Assembly (NCBI GenBank): GCA_039679645.1
Contig: JBDKUO010000004.1
Coordinates: 1 to 64,000 of the forward strand
DNA length: 64,000 nucleotides
Reading direction: 5' to 3'
From: Armatimonadota bacterium
GTDB lineage: Bacteria > Armatimonadota > UBA5829
Under the pieces are notes generated by a model. It had not been told where the DNA came from. It did no database searches and saw only the letters and a program-made list of their open reading frames with translations. Both the position numbers and the translations under genes were made by a program. Of this stretch, positions 31,182 to 45,955 are shown piece by piece; position 1 is the first letter of the stretch, and every line of letters starts with the position of its first letter.

Positions 31182-31339
31182 TTGGCGCTACCTCCGTTAG
31201 TTGCTGAACAGAACAGATGTTCTGCGCGCAACCAATTGGTGCCTCAAACGCGGCAGTGAAGTCAAGAGAAACATCGCGAATCCGAACAGAAACCGTGTTC
31301 TTACGTGGTAGTGGCGGAGTGGGCCTGATCCGGGTGGGT

Positions 31340-31792
31340 AATGGCCACTCCTGCAAGCAGCATCGCCGATACCGAAAACCCTTATCGCATCCGAGAGAGA
31401 CCATATACAAGCAGCATAGACAAAGCCGCTCCCGCGAACGCGAGCAGCGAAGCGCCGGACATTCCGATCACTGTGAACGCCAAGCCCAGCCGGGTCTGCA
31501 GAGCCGCGCCGAACGACGCACCGCTCGCGACTCCTAACGTAGACTCGGTCGCAAGAGGGTTCCTGAACATGGCCTGGAAGACCATTCCGCTGACAGCTAG
31601 AGCTGACCCAGCGAGAAATGCCGTGAGCGTTCGTGGGAGTCTCAGCGACCAGAAGATCGACGACTCGATGTCCGACGGGTCGGGATGTATCACTGCGCTT
31701 ATTCCCGTGACCATGGTTCCCACCAGTGGCATAATGACCAGACACGCTGCCGCAAGCACTGCGAAAAATATGAGTATAGAGACCCTCTTCAA
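31340..31792 (-). pseudogene. btuC: Broken cobalamin ABC transporter permease (btuC/FecCD family)
   Basis: The first 136 codons encode the N-terminal half of a FecCD-type permease: a hydrophobic first helix, then [20 protein letters not shown] and [20 protein letters not shown], the classic FecCD signature. A TAA follows at 31382, and the same frame then reads GFSVSAMLLAGVAI, the expected continuation, before similarity ends at about 31340. So there is one nonsense codon and the remaining 160 or so residues are deleted. The TTG start overlaps the btuD stop (TTGA), with GGAGG upstream. Without it, BtuD and BtuF have no permease encoded here. Confidence 0.8.
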
Positions 31793-32577
31793 CGGCCACC
31801 TCCAGACGGCGCAAGCATTAGCAGATCCGAACACTCGGCTGAATATGCCGTGAACCGCGTCTCGTAAATGGCTTCGAGTATACCGTCCGATATGAGCTTA
31901 TTAGAATCTCCGTCAAAACAGATAGAGCCGTGTTTCAACGCCAACACGCGATTGCTGAGAGCTATCGCCTGATTGATGTCGTGAGTCACGGCGATGACTG
32001 TGACGCCGCGATCCTTATGCATTCGTTTCAGAAGCTCTGAGCATTCCACATGGTGCTTATAATCTAGGAAAGCAGTCGGCTCGTCGAGCAGGAGCAGCTT
32101 TGCGCCCTGGACAAGCGCGGCGGCGACGAACGCCATCTGCTTCTCACCACCGCTCAAGCTGTCGATGTCTCTAGTAGCAAACTGATCGATTCCCACTTCG
32201 CGAAGAGTCTTCTCAACGATGGTCCTGTCTTCTCGAGAAATCAAAGTGAACGGGCTCAGATATGGGTAGCGTCCCATCAGCACAAACTCCTCGACTGTGA
32301 ACGGGAGCGAGCGTCCGCCGGGCTGTGGGACATAGCCAATGAGTGTGGCGAGCCTGCGCTGGCTAAGCTTGTACACTGGCGCACCGAAGAGGGTGATCTC
32401 GCCTGTCCACCCGGTAAGCACTCTGTTCAGACATTTGATGAGCGTGGACTTACCTGCACCGTTGGGGCCGATGATCGAAACGAATTCGCCCTCGTCCACT
32501 CTGAAAGACACATCCGCAAGTATGGGATTCTTGTCGTAGGCAAACCCCAGGTCGCGGACATCCAGCACACAACTCAT
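31789..32577 (-). CDS. btuD: Cobalamin/iron-chelate ABC transporter ATP-binding protein
   Basis: A 262-residue ATPase of the FecE/BtuD family: Walker [11 protein letters not shown]-loop with [12 protein letters not shown], signature LSGGEKQ and Walker [10 protein letters not shown]. It would hydrolyse ATP to drive import of cobalamin through a BtuC dimer in the inner membrane. The start is taken at 32577, where ATG overlaps the BtuF stop (TAATG); an in-frame ATG 15 nt earlier is also possible. The final codons overlap the btuC start. It belongs to a riboswitch-controlled B12 operon. Confidence 0.9.
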
Positions 32578-33485
32578 TATTTGCGGCTCCATTCGATCTC
32601 GGGGTGAATTGCTCTGGCAATGTCTTCCAGGGTCTCGATGAACCTAGGACCGGGCACGACGACGTAGTCACTTGTAAGCGTATAAACCCTGTTGTTCTTC
32701 ACGGCCGATACGTGGGACAGCGTGTTCCATTCGCCGACAGACTTCTCGATCCGGTTCTTCCCCTTGCCCGGGGCGAGATCGATAATGATGTCCGGGTTGA
32801 GCCTGGTTATTCCTTCTCCTGAAAGCGCGGGGGTCTTAGCGATGTTGCTATCGTAGGCGTTTCTGCCTCCGGCAATACCGATGATCTCATCGTAGAAGTT
32901 GTTCTTGCCGGCAACGTATATCTCGCTGACTCCTCCGCCCATTGACCGTCCGATGGAGATCAGCACGCTCGGTCGGTTCAAGCCCTTGGTCCGCCTCTTT
33001 ACTTCATCGATTCTGCCCTGAATGCCTGAGACCAGTTTGTTAGCTCTATCATCAGCGCCAATGGTGTGCCCAATCTTTGTGATGGAGGCGATGATGCCGG
33101 GAATAGTGTTCTGGTTCACCGTGAGCACGCGCAGACCAAGATCAGTGAGCTTCTTCGCTGATTCCTTGTTTTCCACCGTGACTATAACGAGATCCGGCTT
33201 GAGCCTTACGATGGCCTCGAAGTTGGGGTCGATGTATCCGCCGATCTTAGCGATCTTCTTCGCCTCCGGCGGATAGCAGCAATAACGTGTCACTCCTACC
33301 AGCCTATCACCGGCCCCGAGAGCGAACACCGTCTCAGTTATGCTGGGAGCAAGTGAGACGATCCGATTTACGGCTGCGGCCTGACGAGTGAGGTGATGGC
33401 CGAAATCAACCTGCGCCTGCCTGGCGGCGTACATTCCGACGCAGACCAGCACAATAACAAGCAATATTGGAAGGAGCTTTCTCAT
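32577..33485 (-). CDS. btuF: Cobalamin-binding periplasmic protein
   Basis: A 302-residue substrate-binding protein: an N-terminal signal segment (LLPILLVIVLVCVGMYAA), then two lobes of the BtuF/helical-backbone type with RIVSLAPSITETVFALGAGD at the beginning and EIIGIAGGRNAY in the middle. Tyr/Trp-rich positions such as VGVTRYCCYPPEA fit a corrinoid pocket. It captures B12 in the periplasm and delivers it to BtuCD. It starts just after cobO (3-nt gap), and its stop overlaps the btuD start by 1 nt. Iron-siderophore binding is the usual alternative, but riboswitch and cobO context favour B12. Confidence 0.9.
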   Translation of the reverse strand: MRKLLPILLVIVLVCVGMYAARQAQVDFGHHLTRQAAAVNRIVSLAPSITETVFALGAGDRLVGVTRYCCYPPEAKKIAKIGGYIDPNFEAIVRLKPDLVIVTVENKESAKKLTDLGLRVLTVNQNTIPGIIASITKIGHTIGADDRANKLVSGIQGRIDEVKRRTKGLNRPSVLISIGRSMGGGVSEIYVAGKNNFYDEIIGIAGGRNAYDSNIAKTPALSGEGITRLNPDIIIDLAPGKGKNRIEKSVGEWNTLSHVSAVKNNRVYTLTSDYVVVPGPRFIETLEDIARAIHPEIEWSRK

Positions 33486-33488
33486 AGC

Positions 33489-34007
33489 CTAGCTCTCGAT
33501 TCCGGCTCGCGCGAGCACACCTTGAGTATAATAGTGCTTCACCTCACGCATTTCCGTGACGAGATCAGCACGCTCGACGATGCGATCATCGACATACCTG
33601 CCGGTGATTACCAGCTCAACATGCTCCGGCTTCGTATCGATGATCTCCAGCAGTTCGTCAACGCTGAATAGGTTGTAGTAGGTGGCAATATTGGCTTCGT
33701 CCATGATGACAAGCCCATATTCGCCCGATGCAACTGCACGACGCACTTCGTCCAGCCCCTGTCTGGCGACAAGCACATCATCCATCTCCGGTTCATTGCG
33801 AATGAAGCAGCGTCTCCCGAACTGCTTCAGTGTGATCTGGTCCGACAGCTTAGCGAATGAATGCAGCTCGCTGTAATCCATGCCTTTCACGAACTGACCG
33901 ATGAACACTCTCATGCCCGCGCCTGCAGCCCGCATTGCGAGCCCTAGCGCGGCTGTCGTCTTGCCCTTACCGTTGCCGGTATATACTTGAACATATCCCT
34001 TGCTCAT
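33489..34007 (-). CDS. cobO: Corrinoid adenosyltransferase
   Basis: A 172-residue enzyme of the CobO/BtuR/CobA type that adds the 5'-deoxyadenosyl group of ATP to cobalt(I) corrinoids, making the active coenzyme from imported vitamin. The P-loop GNGKGKTTAALG sits at residues 11-22, followed by FVKGMDYSELHSFAKL, VIMDEANIATYY (Walker B) and VELVITGRYVDDRIVE. It acts in the cytoplasm. The start ATG overlaps the end of the DUF71 gene by 4 nt. It fits salvage of imported B12 in the same operon. Confidence 0.95.
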   Translation of the reverse strand: MSKGYVQVYTGNGKGKTTAALGLAMRAAGAGMRVFIGQFVKGMDYSELHSFAKLSDQITLKQFGRRCFIRNEPEMDDVLVARQGLDEVRRAVASGEYGLVIMDEANIATYYNLFSVDELLEIIDTKPEHVELVITGRYVDDRIVERADLVTEMREVKHYYTQGVLARAGIES

Positions 34008-34702
34008 CTCACGACCTCCATTTCGTTTTCGGTGATGATAGGCAGCACCGAGTGGTTATCTATCTCAAAGATACTGCCGGTCTGAAACCGCACCGGCTCC
34101 TTGAACAGCGGTCCATCGTAGACGAATGTGTGGAACTCGCCATTCTCTCCGCAGGCGTCAACGTCTATTGCCTCAAGCTCGCCGATTAATCCGTCCTCGA
34201 TCTCACGACCAAGAAACCCGGCAGGCATGCGATCCGTATCGACCACGACAATGATAGCCTTGAACCCGGCCTCAATGAACTCGCGCACGAGTTCTCTTCG
34301 TGAAGCTTGCCACAACGGTTCGTGAGCAGTCAGACCGGACTCGCCGCAGACCCGCTCAACCCATTCCCGGTGAGGCTCAAGGTCGATATCGCCGAACACG
34401 CCGTGCAGGACTCCCTGCGACTTGAATGTCTCGGCGTTTTTCTTGAACTGCTCCTCGTAGCCCTTCCACGACGAGCGGGTCATGAGGATTGGCAGTTCCA
34501 TTGCTCACGCTTGCGCACGAAGGGAGTTCGGGTATAACCCGTGGGAGCGTGAGTGCGTCCCGGTCTCATCGATCATCGTGAAGAGCGACGCGCACGTGTG
34601 GCCCGCTTGGGTCATGCGATAAAGTGCCAGGCAGGAGTCTTTGCCTCCGCTCCACGATGCGAAGAAGTCGAAGCGTTCGCACGCTTGGTTGTCTTGGTTC
34701 AA
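34004..34702 (-). pseudogene. DUF71 (COG2102) ATP-PPase, B12-salvage type, with in-frame TGA
   Basis: The frame reads as one protein of about 231 residues, the normal family length, interrupted once by TGA (34505-34507). N-terminal part: FASWSGGKDSCLALYRM (ATP-PPase P-loop SGGKDS) and ETGTHSRSHGL; then RAQA-stop-AMELPILMTRSSW; then GVFGDIDLEPHREWVERVC and EPLWQASRRELVREFIEAGF. Published comparative genomics split DUF71 into a diphthamide group and a group predicted in B12 salvage, and the position here next to cobO and btuF fits the latter. The TGA may be a nonsense mutation (CGA to TGA is one transition). The TTG start has GGAGG upstream. The second half could restart at ATG 34501. Confidence 0.8.
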
Positions 34703-34768
34703 TGCTTGTAACCTCCGATTGTCAATGCATTCACCTCGCGGTATCATGACCGCGGGTGGACTTGAAGA

Positions 34769-34798
34769 CCGAAGGACTGGAGGCACCCGGTCCTTCGG
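34769..34798 (-). other. Intraoperonic hairpin
   Basis: CCGAAGGAC (34769-34777) pairs perfectly with GTCCTTCGG (34790-34798) around a 12-nt loop. On the minus strand it is followed by TCTTC rather than a T-run, so it is a weak terminator at best. It lies between the last PEP-CTERM gene and the DUF71 gene and may set the ratio of surface proteins to salvage proteins. Confidence 0.55.
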
Positions 34799-34813: not shown

Positions 34814-35473
34814 TTAGCTTACGCGTCTGCGCATAACAAGTCCACCCATACCTATCAGGCCGCTGACCATTGCTATTAGCGAACCTGGCTCCGGCACGGC
34901 AACAAAAGGAACATTCAACGGATACACGTTGGGGTCCCCGCTGAACCACTGAATTGCGTTGATGCCTTCAAGCTGACCATTTGCAAGCAATTCTTGGTTA
35001 TAACCGGCCATATTGGCGTTCCAGTCACCCAGCTTGGTCCAGTCAGAGCTCATGGCGCCCCATTTGGCATAGGGATCTGAGGTGCTGGCGAGATTCCAGC
35101 TTCCCAGTTCGTCGGCGTGCGTATGGTGATCTACACCGTCGTTGTAGACGATGTCTTCGAGGAATGCTCCACCATACCCGGAGGTCACGGTGAACACTCC
35201 GGCATTGTTGAGTGCATTGAGCATATCCGATTCGTACGCAGTACCGTCCCAGCGGAAGCCAAACGCGTGCGATTCGGTCTGATACGGACCTCCCATGATG
35301 TTCCAGTCCACAACGAGAATCGATTCGTTTGCTCCACTGCCTGCCCAGGCATCTACATCTATCCAAGCGGTTTTACCAGAGACCGAATTGAATTCATAAG
35401 GTGTCGCTGACGCTGCAGTGGCACCTAGAATCATCACTGCAACTGCAATTTTGAGAACCCTCGTAAGTTTCAT
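34814..35473 (-). CDS. PEP-CTERM surface protein, family B
   Basis: A 219-residue secreted protein: signal peptide (VAVMILGATAASA), one beta domain and a C-terminal PEP-CTERM anchor (VPEPGS, hydrophobic helix, RRR), which directs exosortase-type sorting to the outer surface. The domain carries IDVDAWAGSGANESILVVDW and AFGFRWDG, shared with the gene at 36403, so the two are paralogs. It lies in the cobalamin-riboswitch operon. I infer B12 or corrinoid handling at the cell surface; no biochemical evidence is visible. AAGGAG precedes the ATG. Confidence 0.85.
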   Translation of the reverse strand: MKLTRVLKIAVAVMILGATAASATPYEFNSVSGKTAWIDVDAWAGSGANESILVVDWNIMGGPYQTESHAFGFRWDGTAYESDMLNALNNAGVFTVTSGYGGAFLEDIVYNDGVDHHTHADELGSWNLASTSDPYAKWGAMSSDWTKLGDWNANMAGYNQELLANGQLEGINAIQWFSGDPNVYPLNVPFVAVPEPGSLIAMVSGLIGMGGLVMRRRVS

Positions 35474-35496
35474 TGTTTTGCTCCTTTGTATTAGTC

Positions 35497-36375
35497 TTAT
35501 GATCTTCTGCGTCTAGTCCCAAAGCCGATCAGACCGACGGCTCCGGTTACAAGCGCAAGCAGACTTGAGGGCTCGGGAACTGCGGCAACATCAGAGAATC
35601 CGTCGATCTCGCCACCGCTGAACCCCGAGACTCCCTCGACTTTAATATATTGAATCCAGCCAAAGCCCGATTCGGCCAGATCGAAGCCGGTGCCACCGGC
35701 GGAACCATCGAAGAGAGCAATCGCCTGAGCACCGGTCTTGCCCGCGAAATCCGCGCTGGTCAGACTGGGGTTGACCGGCTTGGTAAAGTCAGCTTGCGTA
35801 TTCGTCCAACAGGCGTTGGCGCTGTCCCAAAGATAGGCATTCGTTGGGAACATGGCGTCGGCGTAGGGGCCGTTGTTGTAGGTGTACCAGTCGGTGCCGT
35901 CCTGGCTGACCGAGACTTTCATGTTCTCCGCGAATATGCTGCCGTTAGTTAGCTTGTAGGTGTTCATATTGGTCGTGTCGGAGACGGTTCCGCTGCCGAC
36001 AAAGAACGAGTTACCGAAGACCAGGAAGTCGATACCGTAGGGGTTCAGCGGATCGTCCATTACCTGGTGGTCGAATTTCACCTCCATCCATTGGCCGGTG
36101 TTGAGGGTCGTAATGAGCTTCTCTCCGCTCGGGCCGACATTGTACGCGGGCTCGACAAGCTTTACCCGATGATTGCTGGTGTCGCCCCAGGTGTTCTTGA
36201 ACCATGTACTGGGCTGCCCAATGACTGCGTTGGGATCATTGTAGAGAGACGAACCGGTCAGATCGGATGAATAGCCGATAAGCGTCGTGGCATATGGGCT
36301 GAATGCGAACGCCGCGGCGCTCAACGCCATAAGCCCTGCTGTAAAGAGTGTAGTGATTGTTCTTTTGAGTTTCAT
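35497..36375 (-). CDS. PEP-CTERM surface protein, family A
   Basis: A 292-residue secreted protein with a signal peptide (LFTAGLMALSAAAFA), one large beta domain and a PEP-CTERM tail (VPEPSSLLAL then RRRR). The domain shares with the larger protein at 37271 the blocks DPNAVIGQPSTW, VKFDHQVMDDP with GNSFFVGSG, VSVSQDGTDWYTYNNGPY and AQAIALFDGSAGGTGFDLAE. This block order resembles a carbohydrate- or ligand-binding beta sandwich. It is 23 nt from its downstream neighbour and in the B12 operon. The function is inferred from context only. Confidence 0.85.
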   Translation of the reverse strand: MKLKRTITTLFTAGLMALSAAAFAFSPYATTLIGYSSDLTGSSLYNDPNAVIGQPSTWFKNTWGDTSNHRVKLVEPAYNVGPSGEKLITTLNTGQWMEVKFDHQVMDDPLNPYGIDFLVFGNSFFVGSGTVSDTTNMNTYKLTNGSIFAENMKVSVSQDGTDWYTYNNGPYADAMFPTNAYLWDSANACWTNTQADFTKPVNPSLTSADFAGKTGAQAIALFDGSAGGTGFDLAESGFGWIQYIKVEGVSGFSGGEIDGFSDVAAVPEPSSLLALVTGAVGLIGFGTRRRRS

Positions 36376-36402
36376 TGTGTTTTCCTCCTTATGGGTTCTG
36401 GG

Positions 36403-37254
36403 TTATATTCTGCGCCTCGCCGCGAAGCCGATCAGCCCGATTGCTCCGCTTATGAGGGCCAGAATGCTTGGGGGTTCGGGAACAGTTGAGATTGTCGATA
36501 CATCCGGCGCGTGCTTATGTTCGTACCATGCCGCTGAACCTGCTGAGGTAGGGTCTGAAAAGTCCAGTCCGCCTGCCGCAATCGACCAGCCGACCCACGT
36601 GCCGTTTTGAATATTCACCGAACTTATTCCGACCTGCGAAAACGTCCAGCCGCCGTCGGTGCCGCCCCAGCCATCGGTTGTTGTCCAGTATTGGCCTGGG
36701 CCTCGATTTGGAGCCATGCTGGAGTTTGTGGTACTCTGCCAAAGCTCCCAGTTCGGCCCGTACCAGCCGCCCCAGTAGAGATCGGCTGGATCAGTGGAGT
36801 TGAAGTAATCCGGGTCGGAGTAGCTACCCGCCACAATTCCGCCCTTGAAGTCGGACTTCGAGTAGGTTGTTGAGCCGTCGGTCAGGCCATACTGACCATT
36901 ATGGTCCAGATCATAGCCAAGGCCGAAGACCGCCGCGCCATACTGCGTATTGCCACTGGTCAGGGCAAATACGCCGACATTCGCGCCTAGAATGGCATTG
37001 AACATAGCCGCGCCGGTCGTTGTCCCGTTGAAACGATATCCGAACGCCATGCATTTCTGAGTGACGGGTAGGTTCACGTTGCTCAGGTTTGGGTCGATTA
37101 CCTGAGGGGTGCTCCACTCGATCACCATTGCGGCTTGGTTGCTACCACTGCCGGTCCACTGTTGGACGTCATTAAATGAGAATGCGCTCGCGGATGAACC
37201 GACGAGCATTGCTGCCGACACAATCAGCAGCATGAGAGTGATGATTCTTTTCAT
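36403..37254 (-). CDS. PEP-CTERM surface protein, family B (longer paralog)
   Basis: A 283-residue secreted protein. The start is set at ATG 37254, where GGAGG lies upstream and a signal peptide begins (MKRIITLMLLIVSAAML). It has NDVQQWTGSGSNQAAMVIEW and AFGYRFNG in common with the 219-residue paralog, plus a longer middle part with NGQYG and Gly/Trp-rich loops. The C-terminal PEP-CTERM motif is VPEPPSILALI followed by a basic tail. It lies 16 nt from its upstream neighbour in the same operon. Confidence 0.85.
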   Translation of the reverse strand: MKRIITLMLLIVSAAMLVGSSASAFSFNDVQQWTGSGSNQAAMVIEWSTPQVIDPNLSNVNLPVTQKCMAFGYRFNGTTTGAAMFNAILGANVGVFALTSGNTQYGAAVFGLGYDLDHNGQYGLTDGSTTYSKSDFKGGIVAGSYSDPDYFNSTDPADLYWGGWYGPNWELWQSTTNSSMAPNRGPGQYWTTTDGWGGTDGGWTFSQVGISSVNIQNGTWVGWSIAAGGLDFSDPTSAGSAAWYEHKHAPDVSTISTVPEPPSILALISGAIGLIGFAARRRI

Positions 37255-37270
37255 TGCGTCCTTTCCTCCT

Positions 37271-38797
37271 TCATTGCAAATCGTTTCCGTCTCTGAGCCT
37301 GACAACCGGCACGAATCCGCCCTGTTCATCGGACTCAACCGAACTGATGCCGGTGACTGTTACGAACTGATCCTTGGCGGGCGGAGTAAAGTCTGACTTA
37401 GCCGTTACTCCCCAGTTGGGGTCACCAGGGTTGGGAGCGTCGCTTTCCGATGGTGCGGTCCTGGGAGCGATGCACTTGATCTTCCGCCCGGAGCCATCGT
37501 CGACCACGAACGATTTCGTATCGACATCGACCGATGTCACTTTGCCCCAGGTCCTCACCAGCAGATCCTTGGTACTCAAGCCATTTCCAGCGACAGCCTT
37601 GTTAGGCATTCCTAGTGGCTTTACATCTATAGTGACATCTTGACCCTGTTCGTCCTTTTCGGTGAGGACTGATGTCGCCAGGATCACCTTCTCACCGTTG
37701 ATCGTGTCCATGTCACCATAGACTCTGAGCTTTTGGCCTCTGACGAACACTCTGCCCATCAGCTTGATGCCGCTGGATCGGTTCGACTGTTGAATATAGC
37801 AGAACCGGCCTGTTGAGTAAGTCTCGCCGGACACGACTACATCGTTCAAGACGACATGTGTCCCATCATCGAGCTTCTTTGCCTCACCGATTGACGTTGG
37901 TGCGATCTGGTGGCTCACACGAGTGAATGCATCGACTTCTCCGCCAGTCCCATCGACCTTGATATACTGAATCCACTTCCGTCCGTTGGCGTCTTTTGGC
38001 CATGTGTCAGGTATCTCGGCGAGATCGAATGCCGTTCCACCGCCGGAGCCTTCATACATATCGATTGCCTGGGCGCAGCTCTTGTAGTTGTAGTCTGCGG
38101 GTTGCCATGCAGGATCGACCGGGCGAGTGAAGTCGAGTTCCACCTCCTTGCCGGAGCTATTCAAGAGCCAGTGGTTTTCCACCCAGTCCCACGCGAATGC
38201 TTGAGTCGGGGCATAATCATCATCGTAGGGGCCGTTTGAATATGTATACCAGGTCACACCATCCTGGCTGACGCTAACGGGCGACGGCTCGATGAAGATA
38301 GCGTCTCCGCCATAGGCAGAGAATATCATCTGCTCCATGTTCGATGCCGCGTATACATACGAACCGCCCAGCACGAAGAATGCGTTTCCGTAGACCTCGA
38401 AGTCCTTGCCATACCAGTTGTCCGGATCGTCGTAGATAGGCGTGGCGAACTTCACTGTGATATAGCCTGCCGGATTGCCGCGTCCTGCAGGCATGATCGA
38501 AGTGATCAGCTTTTCCCCATTGCCGTGGATTCCATCGTTAGGAGCGACGTTCCATGCCGGGCAGACCATTGATACAGCACAGATGCCTGGGTCGTTGGGT
38601 GCGCCTGAACCCCACATCCAGGTCGATGGTTTTCCAAGGACAGCGTTGGGGTCGGCATACGGATTATTCGCGCCTCCCTGACCAAGACGCGAATAACCTA
38701 CCACCTCAGACGCCCACCAGTCGGTGGCCATCGCAGCGCCGCACAGGCTCAACCCGAGCAGCAATACGATGGCCGAAGTTACAGACCGATACCTCAT
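37271..38797 (-). CDS. Secreted protein, family A domain plus OB-fold-like domain
   Basis: A 508-residue secreted protein without a PEP-CTERM tail. Residues 1-25 are a signal peptide. Residues 30-330 repeat the family A domain (DPNAVLGKPSTW, YGNAFFVLGG, VSVSQDGVTWYTYSNGPY, AQAIDMYEGSGGGTAFDLAE). The rest looks like one or two small OB-like beta barrels (FCYIQQSNRSSGIKLMGRV and RTWGKVTSVDVDTKSFVVDD), a module seen in secreted proteins of this phylum. The ATG at 38797 has GGGAGGA upstream. It may be the core of the surface complex, with the anchored paralog beside it. Confidence 0.8.
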   Translation of the reverse strand: MRYRSVTSAIVLLLGLSLCGAAMATDWWASEVVGYSRLGQGGANNPYADPNAVLGKPSTWMWGSGAPNDPGICAVSMVCPAWNVAPNDGIHGNGEKLITSIMPAGRGNPAGYITVKFATPIYDDPDNWYGKDFEVYGNAFFVLGGSYVYAASNMEQMIFSAYGGDAIFIEPSPVSVSQDGVTWYTYSNGPYDDDYAPTQAFAWDWVENHWLLNSSGKEVELDFTRPVDPAWQPADYNYKSCAQAIDMYEGSGGGTAFDLAEIPDTWPKDANGRKWIQYIKVDGTGGEVDAFTRVSHQIAPTSIGEAKKLDDGTHVVLNDVVVSGETYSTGRFCYIQQSNRSSGIKLMGRVFVRGQKLRVYGDMDTINGEKVILATSVLTEKDEQGQDVTIDVKPLGMPNKAVAGNGLSTKDLLVRTWGKVTSVDVDTKSFVVDDGSGRKIKCIAPRTAPSESDAPNPGDPNWGVTAKSDFTPPAKDQFVTVTGISSVESDEQGGFVPVVRLRDGNDLQ

Positions 38798-38914: not shown

Positions 38915-39757
38915 CTAGTCCAGATCATAGGCCGAGTCGTCCAGCGACAGACCGCCGGTATCGGGCGGGCAGTCGTACGATTTCTTGCCGAGTGGGAGCC
39001 AGGGTACATCGGTGTAGTGTGTATACTTCTTCCGAACAGCAGCCACGTGGCCGTCTGCATACGCGACTGTTGCTGCTCCATTGTGGCGAAAGTGAACGGT
39101 TCCCCATCTGAAAAGCAGTTCACTTGGAGCACGGAGGTAGTTCTGGGCAGACTCGCCATGAGGCCCGTATGCGCCCTCGGCGAAAACAGCAGTAGCTGAC
39201 GGATGCCTTATTCGCCCCAATAACGCTATTGTGTGAGGACGGCCGGAGTATTGATCGATCCAGACCTCGTTGAACTGGTCGACCTCTCCGCCGATGTAGC
39301 TCATATTGTATGCATAGCCGGAATAAGGACGATCATGCTTGCCGCCGTAGAAAGAAGGGCAGCTCTTGATCTCGCCATTTCTGCAATATGGACTCAGCAA
39401 GCCATATTTCCAGATGGTCTTGTCCCCCACGTCTTTGAGATCGAAGTCCCACGCGTGAGTCCAGCCGTCATTTGTGTAGTAAAGTGAGGGGCATGCCCAG
39501 CCGTTGTTGTCATCGGCATACATCAGCCATGCCTTGCTGATCTGGCTCAGGTTCGAAATGCACTTTGCCTGCCGAGCCTGCTCCTTGGCGGATATGAACA
39601 CGGGAAAAAGCATCGCCGTGAGGATGGCGATGACAGCTATTACCACCAATAGCTCTATGAGTGAAAAACCATATTTACCAAAACGGGCTCCTCGCCCATT
39701 TCGGATGATTTGGACGGGAGCCCGTAATACGCCTGACGCGCAATTAGCTTCCAACAT
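38915..39757 (-). CDS. Prepilin-like protein with H-X9-DG motif
   Basis: A 280-residue type IV pilin/pseudopilin-like protein, first gene behind the cobalamin riboswitch. After a basic leader comes the prepilin cleavage motif (YGFSLIELLVVIAVIAILTA, Gly before Phe) and then the mature domain with KCISNLSQISKAWLMYADDN and, near the end, HFRHNGAATVAYADGHVAAV, the H-X9-DG-type C-terminal signature seen in DUF1559-like proteins of Armatimonadota and Planctomycetes. It has two Cys pairs. It would be cleaved by a prepilin peptidase and may assemble a pseudopilus or anchor other proteins. GGAGG lies 5 nt before ATG 39757. Confidence 0.88.
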   Translation of the reverse strand: MLEANCASGVLRAPVQIIRNGRGARFGKYGFSLIELLVVIAVIAILTAMLFPVFISAKEQARQAKCISNLSQISKAWLMYADDNNGWACPSLYYTNDGWTHAWDFDLKDVGDKTIWKYGLLSPYCRNGEIKSCPSFYGGKHDRPYSGYAYNMSYIGGEVDQFNEVWIDQYSGRPHTIALLGRIRHPSATAVFAEGAYGPHGESAQNYLRAPSELLFRWGTVHFRHNGAATVAYADGHVAAVRKKYTHYTDVPWLPLGKKSYDCPPDTGGLSLDDSAYDLD

Positions 39758-39790
39758 CTCAGCCTCCGAAGATGTAGAATAGGATCGCAG

Positions 39791-39972
39791 ATCAGGCAGG
39801 TCTTCTGGCTCTCGGATCGCTCTACTCCCGATGTCTTCCCGCAGTGTCCTGTGAGTTTGCTGACACTGCAGTGACTTGATATCGGTTTCGTCCCCGATTA
39901 CAGCGGCGGGCCCGCGACGGATTTACACCGTCTTCCCTCTTGGTCCCGGAAATATCCCGGGAAACCTGACCG
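39791..39972 (-). promoter_or_regulatory. Cobalamin riboswitch
   Basis: On the minus strand the aptamer reads in order: AGGGAAGACGGTGTAAATCC (the L2-J2/3 core), GCCGCTGTAATCGGGG, CACTGC with an internal kissing-loop arm, GGGAAGAC, and the B12 box GAGCCAGAAGACCTGCC at its 3' end. P1 can close by CAGGT (about 39963-39967) with ACCTG (39797-39801). It binds adenosylcobalamin or another corrinoid and turns the operon off. The first start codon is only 33 nt beyond the aptamer with no terminator stem between them, so control is probably at translation initiation. Confidence 0.96.
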
Positions 39973-39999
39973 CGCATGGTATTCAGTTTTACTGGAAAC

Positions 40000-41310: not shown

Positions 41311-42645
41311 TCATGCCTTTGGATGGTAATGGGCAAGTAGGTGGGAGAACTCTGTTCCATCAACGTCCACTTCCCGTCCGCTGGATACCCTCAAGAACTC
41401 GGCTCGCTGGCTTTCACTCAATGCCTGGAACGCGTTCCGCCACTCGCATGCACCGTTGTTCTCGTGCTTTCTCCTATTGATGATGTACTCCTCCGGCATC
41501 ATCGCAATCTCAATAAACTCCTCGGGCGTCCGCCCGAACGCTGCTTCAAAGAAATCGAGATGAGTGCCGACCTTGCCCTTTGTAGCCAAAAGAATGCACT
41601 GCACCCTCTAAGCAGGCGACGATTCCAGTGCTCGCCCACGTGAGTGCGGTCCTTCGCATCAAGGGGGATATACTTCATCGGGAATGAATATATCTGAGTA
41701 CCCAGTTCCTGGTTAAGCTCAACGTTTATGCGCAGGCGCTCGTAGAAATCCTGCGGAGTGTCAGTGTAGTTGAATAGCACGTAGTTAGATAGGTGAGTAA
41801 TCCCGCAATCGACCGCTAGCCTGACTCGGTCGACATAGTCATCCTTGAGAGCAATGTGGTCGAAAGCCAATCTGAGCGGCCTAAGTGCTGTCTTTGCCAG
41901 CAATTCCATCTTGTCACGTGTCAGCCGCCGCAAGTCAATCCCCTGGTTGAAGTCCACGTGCCGAAATCTCTTGTTGAGCCTGGCACCCCTTTCGAACCCT
42001 AGCTCCAAGATGTCCCCGATGATCTCCTCGAACTGGTCGGATGCCAGTACGTTATTGTCAAGCAACACCAGATTTTGCTTAGCTCCGTATATAGACTCTA
42101 TGGAACGCACCTGCTTCTTCAGAGGCAGGTAGTCACAAAACGTGGGCTCAATGCGGCTGACTGCGCAAAAGCCGCACCGATTAGGGCAGCCCCTGGTGGC
42201 ATAGCCAATATATGCCGTTCAGTCCGTAGTCATAGTCAATCTGCTCGAGCATACAGTAGTCAGGAATCAGAGTATCAACTCGATGCTTGTCGCCGGGGTC
42301 AAGCATGCCAGGCTTGTCCAGAAGCCCGGGTATAACCGTTGCACCCGTTTGCTGATGCAACTCGTCGCCCAATAAGGTCGCCATGACGCCGCCCACAATG
42401 ATGTCTTCAGGAGACGCGACAGCCCGGCGGTAATAGTCGATGGTATCGGCGGTTGTCTTCCACATGAACGTGAAGAGAGTACTGACGTAGACCCGGTCCC
42501 ACTGCTGCTGCCGAAACTGGGGCACGCAACCCTTGACGAACTGCACGAAATCGCCTTTCAGCTTGTGGTACGTGGATATTTTCATCAAGCCTAAAGGCGG
42601 ATACTTATTCCTGTATGCTGGTTCAACTAAAAGAATGCGTCTCAT
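41311..42645 (-). pseudogene. B12-binding-domain radical SAM protein, two frameshifts
   Basis: Three frames join into one protein of about 440 residues. The N-terminal part (LVEPAYRNKYPPLGLMKIST and IIVGGVMATLLGDEL) is a Rossmann, cobalamin-binding-like domain. After a frameshift near 42200 the frame reads GYATRGCPNRCGFCAV (the CxxxCxxC 4Fe-4S motif), then NLVLLDNNVLAS and LRLAFDHIALKDDYVDRV. A second frameshift near 41615 leads to QCILLATKGKVGTHLDFFE and IINRRKHENNG. The ATG at 42645 overlaps the upstream Dnd-associated gene (ATGA), so it was coexpressed with the Dnd-type cluster. The cobalamin domain may be degenerate. Confidence 0.7.
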
Positions 42646-43112
42646 AAACTGCTGTTATCGATATCAGTATCGATCTGCTCAAAAACGAAGTGCAAGAATT
42701 GCTTGGGCAATTCTTTGCTGCACCCTGGGTCGAGCTGTGGTTCTCCTCCATTTGTGATCGTGTAGTCACCAAGAAAATCCTGCATGAGGATATCTATGCC
42801 AGCGTTAGCGTATTCCTCGATCTTGGCTATCACGGACTTATCATCCTGAATGGCAAGGAAGTCCATGCCGTTTTGCTCAAGCAACATCGCATAGTAGCAG
42901 GCCCATTCGCGCGGGTTTATTGTACTAGAGTAGAATCTGTCCCTGTCATCGCGCGACCCACCAAGGGGTTTGCTCCTCTGGTTCTTATATCCGAGGCACG
43001 CGCACACGAAGAAGAGCTCGTGGGAATCACCTACAACGACGTTCTTGAGGTCGTTGTATAGTCGCTTATAGCGTCCCTCTGTCTTAACGCGAATCTCCCT
43101 ATCCATTTTCAT
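42642..43112 (-). CDS. Dnd-system-associated protein (type 4-like)
   Basis: A 156-residue protein resembling dnd system-associated protein 4: VKTEGRYKRLYNDLKNVV at the start, then ELFFVCACLGYKNQR, NPREWACYYAMLLEQNGMDF and EEYANAGIDILMQDFLGDY. Such proteins are found next to DNA phosphorothioation or restriction genes, and their role is unclear. ATG 43112 overlaps the stop of the DndD-like gene by 1 nt (TGATG), so the longer frame running into that gene is discarded. The gene itself looks intact, unlike its neighbours. Confidence 0.7.
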   Translation of the reverse strand: MKMDREIRVKTEGRYKRLYNDLKNVVVGDSHELFFVCACLGYKNQRSKPLGGSRDDRDRFYSSTINPREWACYYAMLLEQNGMDFLAIQDDKSVIAKIEEYANAGIDILMQDFLGDYTITNGGEPQLDPGCSKELPKQFLHFVFEQIDTDIDNSSL

Positions 43113-45150
43113 CAGGAGTTTTCTCCCTCTCTCAGTATCGCCTGAGCGGTATCTATATCCCGCTCCTCGATCCTCGTGTTGCCGTCGTCTGCTGCTCTTA
43201 GCATGAAGAACTTGCCCCATCTTTCACCAGTCCGCAGAAGCCTGGCTTCCTGCTTTCGGAACTCGGTATCCGTGGCCAGCAGTATCCACTGCGACGAGAA
43301 GTCAGGTACCCGGCGAATCAAGTTCTGGCGGTGCTCATAGGAGAGTCTGCCGAAAGGAGTATCCATGAACAACGGCATCTCCAAGAGAGTGTCGTTTGAC
43401 GCCGCCTGTGCCAGAGCCGCAATAAACGAGATCGACATGATCTGTCGTTGTCCGGCAGAGATGTTTGCAAGAAATGGCTTATTCCATCGGTCAAGAACCT
43501 GGAGCGAATAGTCGCTGTTTACAACAACAGTACGCAGGTTCTCACTCCCCTCCGAATCAAGCAGTTCACGGAACAGGTCGGTCGCCTTCTTTCCAATAAG
43601 GGTCTTTATCTCTCTCGTGAAATCATCGTAGACCGCGTTCAGAGCATCGCGAGTGGCACGCGCCAAGGTAGCACGGCGGGAAAGCTCGTCGTGCCGGCCT
43701 TGCTTCAGTTTCTCCTCATCAAGCTGAGCAATGAGCTGTCCATGCTCACGTTCAAGGTCGGTTACCGATGCCTGTAGCACTTGACTCTCAGCTTCCAGCT
43801 TTACCAGTTTCATTTCGAGTTGCTTCCGGTGTTCATCTAGCTTCGTCGCGTCTTGCCGCTCTGAGGATCCGATCTCCTGCCTAAGGGCCTCAAGCTTGAT
43901 GCGTAATGCCTGGATCTCGTTGCGAATATTGCCGTAAACCACGAGGCGATTCTCAACCTGGCTGGCATCATCGCCGAAGCGCCCCTGCACATCGCTCAAG
44001 TGACGCCAGAGGTTCAGGGCCGCGTCTTGGATGGTCACATCACTCGTTCTGTCTTTCCACTCCAGGATGCGCGCATGCGATTCGGTCCCCTCGCAAATCT
44101 CGTTACCGCAGATGCACCGTTTCTCTGACAGAATCCTCTCGATCAGGTCCTTTCGTATCTCCGATGGGATCTCTCCCTTCTGTTTCTGCTGCTCTATGTT
44201 CTCGAAAACCCGCATCACTGTAGGCGCAACAAGCAATGACGATGCTTTCGCCGTCAGATCCCTCATCCCGGACAGGTGTTCTTTCGCTGCTGTTCCAGAC
44301 CCTGCAGGTTCTGCTCCAGTGTCTTGCGCCTCTCAAACTGGTCTCGTATTTCGTTGAACGCCTCAAGCTCTTTGTCGACCTTGGATATTTCGGCTCTTGC
44401 CCTTGTTGCTTCTTCGCCGATCTCGTCCAAGCGTTGCTTCTTGTCCTTTTGGTCCTGCTCATTATCGCCTAGGCGTTTCAGCAACCTCGCAAGCTCGGGC
44501 GACGCGTTCTTCCGAAGCTCATCTTCCAACTCCCTGGTCAGCCTATCCGTTGCCTTCCTTGCTGTCTCTAGTGCATCGACGTTCAACAGATTGCGGATAC
44601 CTTTACCGATCTCACGTCTCTGCTCAACGCTGGCGCGAGTAAGGCGCTCGATCTTCTCACCGTCGAACAGGAAGTAGTCCTTGACGCGCCGGTCCAGGAT
44701 TGAGCTGACGAGTCTGTCCACCTCGGCTGGCTCTACCACTTTCGAGTTGCCGTCAGGTGTGGTCTCCACAAGACGGACCTCATCTAGCTCTTCAAGTATC
44801 CGATCGTTATTCCGCATTCCCAGAATAGCGCGTTTCAGGCAATACCGTCGCTCTCTGTGGACAAACTGCAGTTCCACGAATGTCTCGACCGGTTTGCCTT
44901 CGCTCTGCTCCAAAGCTGAAGTATTCACCAACTGCAATTCCGAATCCGGCACGTCACCATCCTGTGATAGTCGACGCTCTCCGAAGAGACAGAACACTAT
45001 GGCTCTGAAGACACCGGTCTTGCCGCGGCCATTCTCCCCGAACACAACAGTAACGTTCCGGCTGTCTTCCCCATTTCCAGAGGCGAATTCAATGTGCTGA
45101 ACGCCTTTGAACTGACGGAAATTGGCCATTGTCAATTTCTGCAGTATCAA
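43112..45150 (-). pseudogene. dndD: DndD-like SMC/Rad50-type ATPase, one frameshift
   Basis: Two frames joined by a 1-nt loss in an A-run at about 44281-44284 give a protein of about 680 residues. N-terminal: FRQFKGVQHIEFA and the P-loop GENGRGKTGVFRAIVF. Centre: coiled coil with a zinc-hook-like KRCICGNEICEG. C-terminal: the ABC signature-like ISAGQRQIMSISFIAALAQ and Walker B LFMDTPFGRLS. DndD is the ATPase of the DNA phosphorothioation machinery, thought to open or nick DNA for the sulfur transfer. The ATG at 45150 overlaps the small protein stop. Restart at ATG 44266 would give only the C-terminal half. Confidence 0.78.
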
Positions 45151-45347
45151 GACTGACCTCCAGTCTTTCGCGCAGCGTCGCGAATCAAGCCCTGCAATGC
45201 CTCAAATACCGTTGCCTCGGGCAGATCCTCGGAAAGCTGGATCGCCTTAATGGCCAACTCGGATACAGCCTCGGGATACGACCGCAGTTTCTCTATGATC
45301 AGTTGGTTCACATCGGGCAGAAGTGCTGGATCAGCTTTGCTCATCAT
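45147..45347 (-). CDS. Small protein of a DNA modification system
   Basis: A 66-residue protein. LLPDVNQLIIEKLRSYPEAV and LPEATVFEALQGLIRDAARK suggest a helical bundle, similar to the small proteins annotated as associated with DNA modification systems. It overlaps the helicase frame at its start and dndD by 4 nt at its end, so translation is coupled. It may act as an adaptor between the helicase and DndD. Confidence 0.6.
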   Translation of the reverse strand: MMSKADPALLPDVNQLIIEKLRSYPEAVSELAIKAIQLSEDLPEATVFEALQGLIRDAARKTGGQS

Positions 45348-45955
45348 TTCCCCAGTCCCATTGTCTCAGATTGTGGTAGACGTCCCAAGGTTTTTCATCA
45401 AGCAGGTTTAGCATCTCATAGTGATCGAGGATATCTCGCACAGCAGACCGCGCCTGGAACTCGTTTAGTGCAGAGAACGCAAATTCCGCAAACCTTGGCA
45501 TCTCCCTCTTAAGGATACTCACATCTACATCTTCTTTCAATGACAGGCGCTCGTAGGGTGGCACGACGATGTAGTCATATATGACTGCCTCAGACTTGCC
45601 TCTGGCAGTCCGTAGTATTCTGCCGCGCCTCTGTACAAACTCACGTGGATTTGTGCTGCTTGCGAGCACGAACGCAATTCGCGTAGATGGCACATCAACA
45701 CCTTCGTCTAGGCACTTGATAGCCACAAGAACCTGGATGTCTCCATCCGCAAACTGCTCAAGCAACTTCTCTCGATCAGGCAAGCTTACGTCATGGACAA
45801 ACTCATGACAACGCAAGCCCAGATCAGCAACCGCCTGGAGTACATCACGATGGCCGCCCGGCGCGCAGTATATCAGGATGTCTCGCGTTTCCCGACCATT
45901 CCGCCTGTCGTCATCAACCAGACCTTTGAGGAGGGTAAGCCGAGCTGTGCGAGAC
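45331..45955 (-). pseudogene. C-terminal half of a Dnd-type DEAD/DEAH-box helicase
   Basis: Only helicase domain 2 remains. The frame runs from about 45955: GRETRDILIYCAPGGHRDVL, then VLVAIKCLDEGVDVPSTRIA (motif V region) and FVQRRGRILRTARGK (motif VI with the arginine finger), followed by a C-terminal helical part. Motifs I to III are missing because the frame meets an opposite-strand ParB/RepB-like gene piece at about 45.96 kb. Helicases like this serve as the restriction part of phosphorothioation systems. Confidence 0.72.

Follow-up and report, generated by a model that had tools for sequence, protein, structure and literature searches.

The window, a stretch of 64,000 nucleotides of Armatimonadota DNA, contains a cobalamin riboswitch aptamer (RF00174, 122.3 bits, E 3.4e-30) at 39778-39984 on the minus strand. 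The aptamer heads a unit of minus-strand genes encoding, in order from the riboswitch, a pseudopilin, the proteins A1, B1, A2 and B2, a split PP-loop protein, CobA, BtuF, BtuD and a broken BtuC. The pseudopilin (38915-39757), 20 bases from the aptamer, is of the DUF1559 type with a prepilin methylation motif and a match to the H-X9-DG domain just under its cut-off; the gene sits between the riboswitch and A1 and was absent from the first-pass annotation. A1 (37271-38797) is predicted to comprise a BtuH-type domain at approximately residues 25-298 and two OB-fold-like domains at approximately residues 300-508, without a PEP-CTERM tail. B1 (36403-37254) has a predicted transcobalamin beta-domain-like fold at approximately residues 36-229 followed by a PEP-CTERM tail. 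A2 (35497-36375) combines a predicted BtuH-type domain at approximately residues 25-264 with a PEP-CTERM tail and is without the OB part, and B2 (34814-35473) is a divergent member of family B with a PEP-CTERM tail. The four reading frames are intact, with intergenic gaps of only 16-27 bases, and each has a strong ribosome-binding site, a Shine-Dalgarno sequence a few bases 5' of its ATG. All four frames and the motif blocks quoted in the first-pass annotation were found in the sequence, and its designation of the locus as a B12 operon agrees with the riboswitch and with the CobA/BtuR, BtuF and BtuD genes downstream.

The downstream part of the unit begins with a PP-loop ATPase of the Diphthami_syn_2 type (34004-34786), split in two frames at 34505-34786 and 34004-34501. 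It is followed by a CobA/BtuR corrinoid adenosyltransferase (33489-34007; PF02572, E 1e-62), a BtuF-like periplasmic binding protein (32577-33485; PF01497, E 2e-37) and a BtuD-like ABC ATPase (31789-32592) identified by reading the sequence for the Walker motif, the signature and LLLDEP. The BtuC-like permease fragment (31337-31834, in an interrupted stretch at 31182-31834) contains an in-frame TAA and is missing its C-terminal half, the FecCD match covering positions 4-140 of 311. The broken BtuC and the PP-loop gene spread over two frames could indicate that the operon is decaying and that the A and B duplicates are relics, a reading judged very improbable since none of A1, B1, A2 and B2 is interrupted and each has a good ribosome-binding site, and since the same genome contains elsewhere an intact second riboswitch-A-B module and, on another contig (G000:C45:35978-36955), a full-length FecCD permease. 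The breaks in BtuC and the PP-loop gene could also be assembly errors.

The surroundings of the unit were read as well. The next reading frame after the broken BtuC resembles an amidoligase fragment. Two minus-strand frames at 41499-42645, between the riboswitch unit and a group of ATPase genes, look like pieces of a radical-SAM protein whose start is B12-binding-like, with no Pfam match at 0.001. The ATPase genes (43112-45816, minus strand) consist of an AAA_23/SMC-type ATPase over two frames and then a helicase C-terminal fragment, together resembling a frame-broken operon for DNA repair or phage defence.

Pairwise alignment bore out the earlier proposal that the four proteins fall into two families of two members each, arranged as A1-B1-A2-B2. 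A1 and A2 are 42% identical across the whole domain (E 1e-57, shuffle z 66). The relation between B1 and B2 is weak (26% identity; z 11.4 outside the signal and PEP-CTERM segments), yet far above that of shuffled sequence. A and B are unrelated, with no resemblance outside the PEP-CTERM tail (z -0.3 to 2.8).

No Pfam domain covers family A. A profile built from the window copies and their relatives found the BtuH2 (7BIZ) and BtuG1 (8BLW) structures as its two best PDB matches, and a cleaner profile of distant Armatimonadota members returned these as the only matches at E up to 0.1 (8BLW, 6.7e-12; 7BIZ, 2.5e-8). Antibody light chains in the first search were judged to be compositional noise, as they disappeared with the cleaner profile. 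The AlphaFold model of A2 (mean pLDDT 88.5) had 8BLW as the sole Foldseek match below 0.001, and superposition gave Z 13.5 with BtuH2 and 13.2 with the BtuG1 H-domain (rmsd 2.6-2.8 over 139-146 residues); discoidin/CBM32 structures were next, at Z 10.8 or less. Contacts of BtuH2 with B12 include Asn399, to the B12 phosphate, and Gln333 (PMC8941943). Asn399 aligned with an invariant Asn of family A; in the 7BIZ chain Asn399 is position 299, and this offset of 100 yields the correct residue type at each of the eight contacts named in that paper. Gln333 is kept in distant family A members and not in A2, and the loop contacts His476, Tyr510, Trp511 and Trp577 could not be aligned reliably to family A. 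The C-terminal extension of A1 forms two OB-like domains, with profile matches to RPA14 (1.5e-4) and YgiW (0.014). This extension is common to most relatives in the class; in more distant relatives (family group f16), A ends soon after the BtuH-type domain with neither extension nor PEP-CTERM tail. Profile and predicted fold together indicate that family A contains a BtuH-type domain and suggest that it binds cobalamin.

Apart from the PEP-CTERM tail, no meaningful Pfam or PDB sequence match was found for family B. The model of B1 is moderate (pLDDT 66.6), with core strands at 80-90. Foldseek E-values with this model were weak, and the best target-normalised scores were those of DUF4430 and transcobalamin beta-domain chains. 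Structural alignment separated these from everything else, five transcobalamin entries scoring Z 9.3-9.8 and DUF4430 (3U7Z) Z 8.9, with the next fold at Z 3.2. For the six entries the rmsd was 2.1-2.6 across 94-101 residues; the superposition on the transcobalamin beta domain at Z 9.8 took in 101 of 105 residues. Identity with DUF4430 by sequence was rejected, there being no match to PF14478 in 61 Armatimonadota and 14 other-lineage genomes, and none to it in a Pfam search of B even at E 10. Neither is B a whole transcobalamin or intrinsic factor; it is without the alpha/alpha barrel domain and was not filed as transcobalamin because it consists of one beta-type domain and PEP-CTERM only. By the moderate model, the beta domain of transcobalamin and intrinsic factor is what family B resembles in its predicted fold; B is an unannotated bacterial family with a putative B12-carrier fold and no match to the DUF4430 profile. 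The blocks shared within each family extend to a common fold, that of BtuH for A and, as modelled, a transcobalamin beta-like one for B. Family B most likely also contacts cobalamin, alone or with A.

With the PEP-CTERM profile (TIGR02595, cut-off 16), A2, B1 and B2 scored 24.6, 16.4 and 21.4 bits, all at or above the cut-off, and no such signal was found in A1. The genome of the window encodes two exosortases. PEP-CTERM proteins are often linked to extracellular polymers, and the A fold is also discoidin/CBM32-like (Z up to about 10); A and B might on these grounds be surface proteins that serve adhesion or carbohydrate binding and respond to B12 status, for instance to attach to B12-producing neighbours, and not B12 binders. 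This is considered improbable, since the nearest structures to A by both profile and Z are two B12-binding BtuH domains, the phosphate-contacting Asn is invariant, B matches a B12-carrier fold in its model, and CobA and BtuF are in the same operon. The riboswitch, folds, pairing, neighbours and conserved Asn, all of them computed, favour cobamide capture.

The history of the ABAB arrangement differs from that first proposed, namely a duplication of an A-B pair in which one A copy gained the OB part and lost its anchor. A1 and A2 fell in separate, well supported clades; B2 was sister to B of genome G011, and B1 grouped with sequences of family group f16. Sister relations were rejected for A1 and A2 (AU p 2e-72) and for B1 and B2 (p 1e-18), and with them a recent duplication of the pair. 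Deeper unions, corresponding to an ancient duplication of the A-B pair, were not rejected (p 0.32 and 0.21). The polarity of the supposed gain and loss is reversed, as the usual A in the class of the window is OB-bearing and anchorless, and it is A2 with its PEP-CTERM anchor that departs from the rule. The paralog order also varies among relatives, most having A-B and two congeners A-B-A with the second B missing; in genome G004 an IS1595-type transposase lies within the A-B-A arrangement, and G011 has an A1-type A together with a B2-type B. Because the sister relations were rejected and relatives have the A-B or A-B-A order, ABAB was probably assembled piece by piece; an ancient duplication of the A-B pair is possible.

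The module is closely linked to cobalamin riboswitches. The genome of the window has only two, and each drives a pseudopilin-A-B module. A cobalamin riboswitch was found beside 32 of 34 B loci, 29 above the Rfam gathering score and three weaker ones immediately upstream of the pseudopilin gene; contig ends cut the other two loci. Outside the Armatimonadota, 12 of the 15 A loci scanned have one. Two further features were seen near such loci. A PdxA-family gene adjoins the riboswitch-B module at three loci of the genus of the window (L056 3880-4881, L048 2862-3887 and L192 3018-4055), and in a congener two tandem c-di-GMP-I riboswitches lie near the A2 gene (L046 15715-16017, minus strand). A literature search on cobalamin riboswitches with PEP-CTERM proteins found nothing relevant.

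Among 291 Armatimonadota genomes, family B is present in 37, family A in 54 and both in 26 (Fisher p 5e-14, kinship ignored). Of the 26 genomes that have both, 24 have the two genes next to each other. In two genomes A and B form one reading frame (L188 4612-6084 and L190 4041-5513), in which they are separated by an internal PEP-CTERM-like segment and a second signal-like segment, resembling a single polyprotein. The adjacency and the single frames indicate that a joint function is likely. The pairing on which the first-pass annotation had based a two-protein complex is conserved, and A and B may be in direct contact. In a variant of the cobamide-capture explanation, A and B are independent cobamide binders that form no complex and share an operon because they are redundant or take different cobamides. 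BtuG, BtuH, BtuJ and BtuK coexist in Bacteroides, and B is missing from 28 of the 54 genomes with A, as is A from 11 of the 37 with B; the conserved adjacency and the single frames argue the other way, and the variant is given slightly less than an even chance.

The pseudopilin is conserved beside A, B or both throughout the phylum and beyond. Planctomycetota, Hydrogenedentota and a few others have A after the riboswitch, often with a beta-propeller gene in between, and the pseudopilin after A; the pseudopilin is beside or fused to A in 67 of 77 named loci. At eight loci, mostly on Hydrogenedentota contigs, a BtuH-type domain shares one reading frame with a full prepilin of TLIELL-type motif that is DUF1559-like (L101, L104, L109, L111, L116, L117, L127 and L129). 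A secreted beta-propeller gene lies between riboswitch and A at L072, L073, L078, L082, L099, L103 and L121 and is apparently fused to A in L076, recalling BtuG-BtuH of Bacteroides. BtuG was rejected as the identity of the Planctomycetota gene, its profile finding other beta-propellers and not BtuG, and only the designation beta-propeller is claimed. In most relatives the BtuFCD genes are not adjacent to the module. TonB-receptor plug domains are present in the genome of the window, and none were found in G011 and G021, both of which carry A and B, indicating that the module is independent of detectable TonB receptors.

The best reading of these results is a Btu-like cobamide capture system with two predicted B12-binding folds and a DUF1559 pseudopilin, and we consider it likely that all four proteins capture cobamides (B12) outside the cytoplasm and belong to an acquisition operon under riboswitch control. 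Low cobamide would permit expression of the operon through the riboswitch, and A, B and the pseudopilin would be exported, the PEP-CTERM copies A2, B1 and B2 being sorted by exosortase. The BtuH-type jellyroll of family A would bind cobalamin, and scarce cobamides captured by A and B would be handed to BtuF and an ABC transporter of the BtuCD type, with CobA adenosylating them; the pseudopilin may display or export the binders. Cobalamin binding, contact between A and B, surface location and the order of hand-over are proposed here by analogy with known Btu systems (PMC8941943, PMC10404256, PMC12751083). To be weighed against this reading, the likeness of B to transcobalamin is structural, comes from a moderate model and is detected by no sequence profile; Gln333 is not kept in A2; the BtuC of the operon is broken, though a full-length FecCD is present elsewhere; and most relatives have their BtuFCD genes apart from the module. 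A bolder arrangement, which we put forward tentatively and think rather unlikely, is that A and B close as a two-lobed clamp around cobalamin, with B acting like the transcobalamin beta domain and the A jellyroll replacing the alpha domain, shown at the cell surface by exosortase sorting and the dedicated pseudopilin. Such a clamp would be a bacterial counterpart of animal B12 carriers built from two separate proteins. The fold predicted for family B is that of half of human transcobalamin, and its genomic context points to B12. Under the preferred reading of cobamide capture, families A and B are directly testable candidates for new B12-binding proteins. The BtuH domain is now placed under the control of B12 riboswitches in mostly uncultured bacteria of the Armatimonadota, Planctomycetota and Hydrogenedentota, and the question is raised why the module almost always includes a pseudopilin.

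BtuH has been described from gut Bacteroidetes together with three homologs from gut Firmicutes (PMC8941943). Family A shares with the Bacteroides proteins (BtuH2, 7BIZ; BtuG1 H domain, 8BLW) the predicted fold and a detectable sequence relation, and shares with their systems the B12-riboswitch operon with Btu genes, the extracytoplasmic location and the paralogous copies. It differs in phylum and in identity, which is 20-24% in structural alignment, and the window copies are without an N-terminal PKD or propeller domain and have no visible lipoprotein anchor. The tandem OB folds of A1, the PEP-CTERM tail of A2 and the B and pseudopilin partners are not features of Bacteroides BtuH. Family A adds a distant member to the BtuH kind, one whose phyla and architecture are both new. 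It also weakly matches NCBIfam NF033170 (LIC_13355 family lipoprotein) in 16 of 20 members (best E 4.3e-7), far under the cut-off of 120 bits (A2 21, A1 11); those lipoproteins may carry a BtuH-type domain too. The BtuJ/DUF4465 jellyroll is likewise secreted, sometimes C-terminally sorted, cobalamin-binding and riboswitch-linked (PMC12751083, PMC13398666), and it was rejected as the identity of A or B since neither matches PF14717, for which this genome has no match at all. Family B resembles the transcobalamin beta domain (5NO0, 4ZRP, 8IXT) and DUF4430 (3U7Z) in its predicted fold of approximately 100 residues (Z 8.9-9.8) and differs from them, beyond the missing PF14478 match and barrel domain, in its loop insertions, its PEP-CTERM anchor and its bacterial riboswitch operon. 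Read in this way, the whole system is a variant, not seen before, of riboswitch-controlled surface capture of cobamides.
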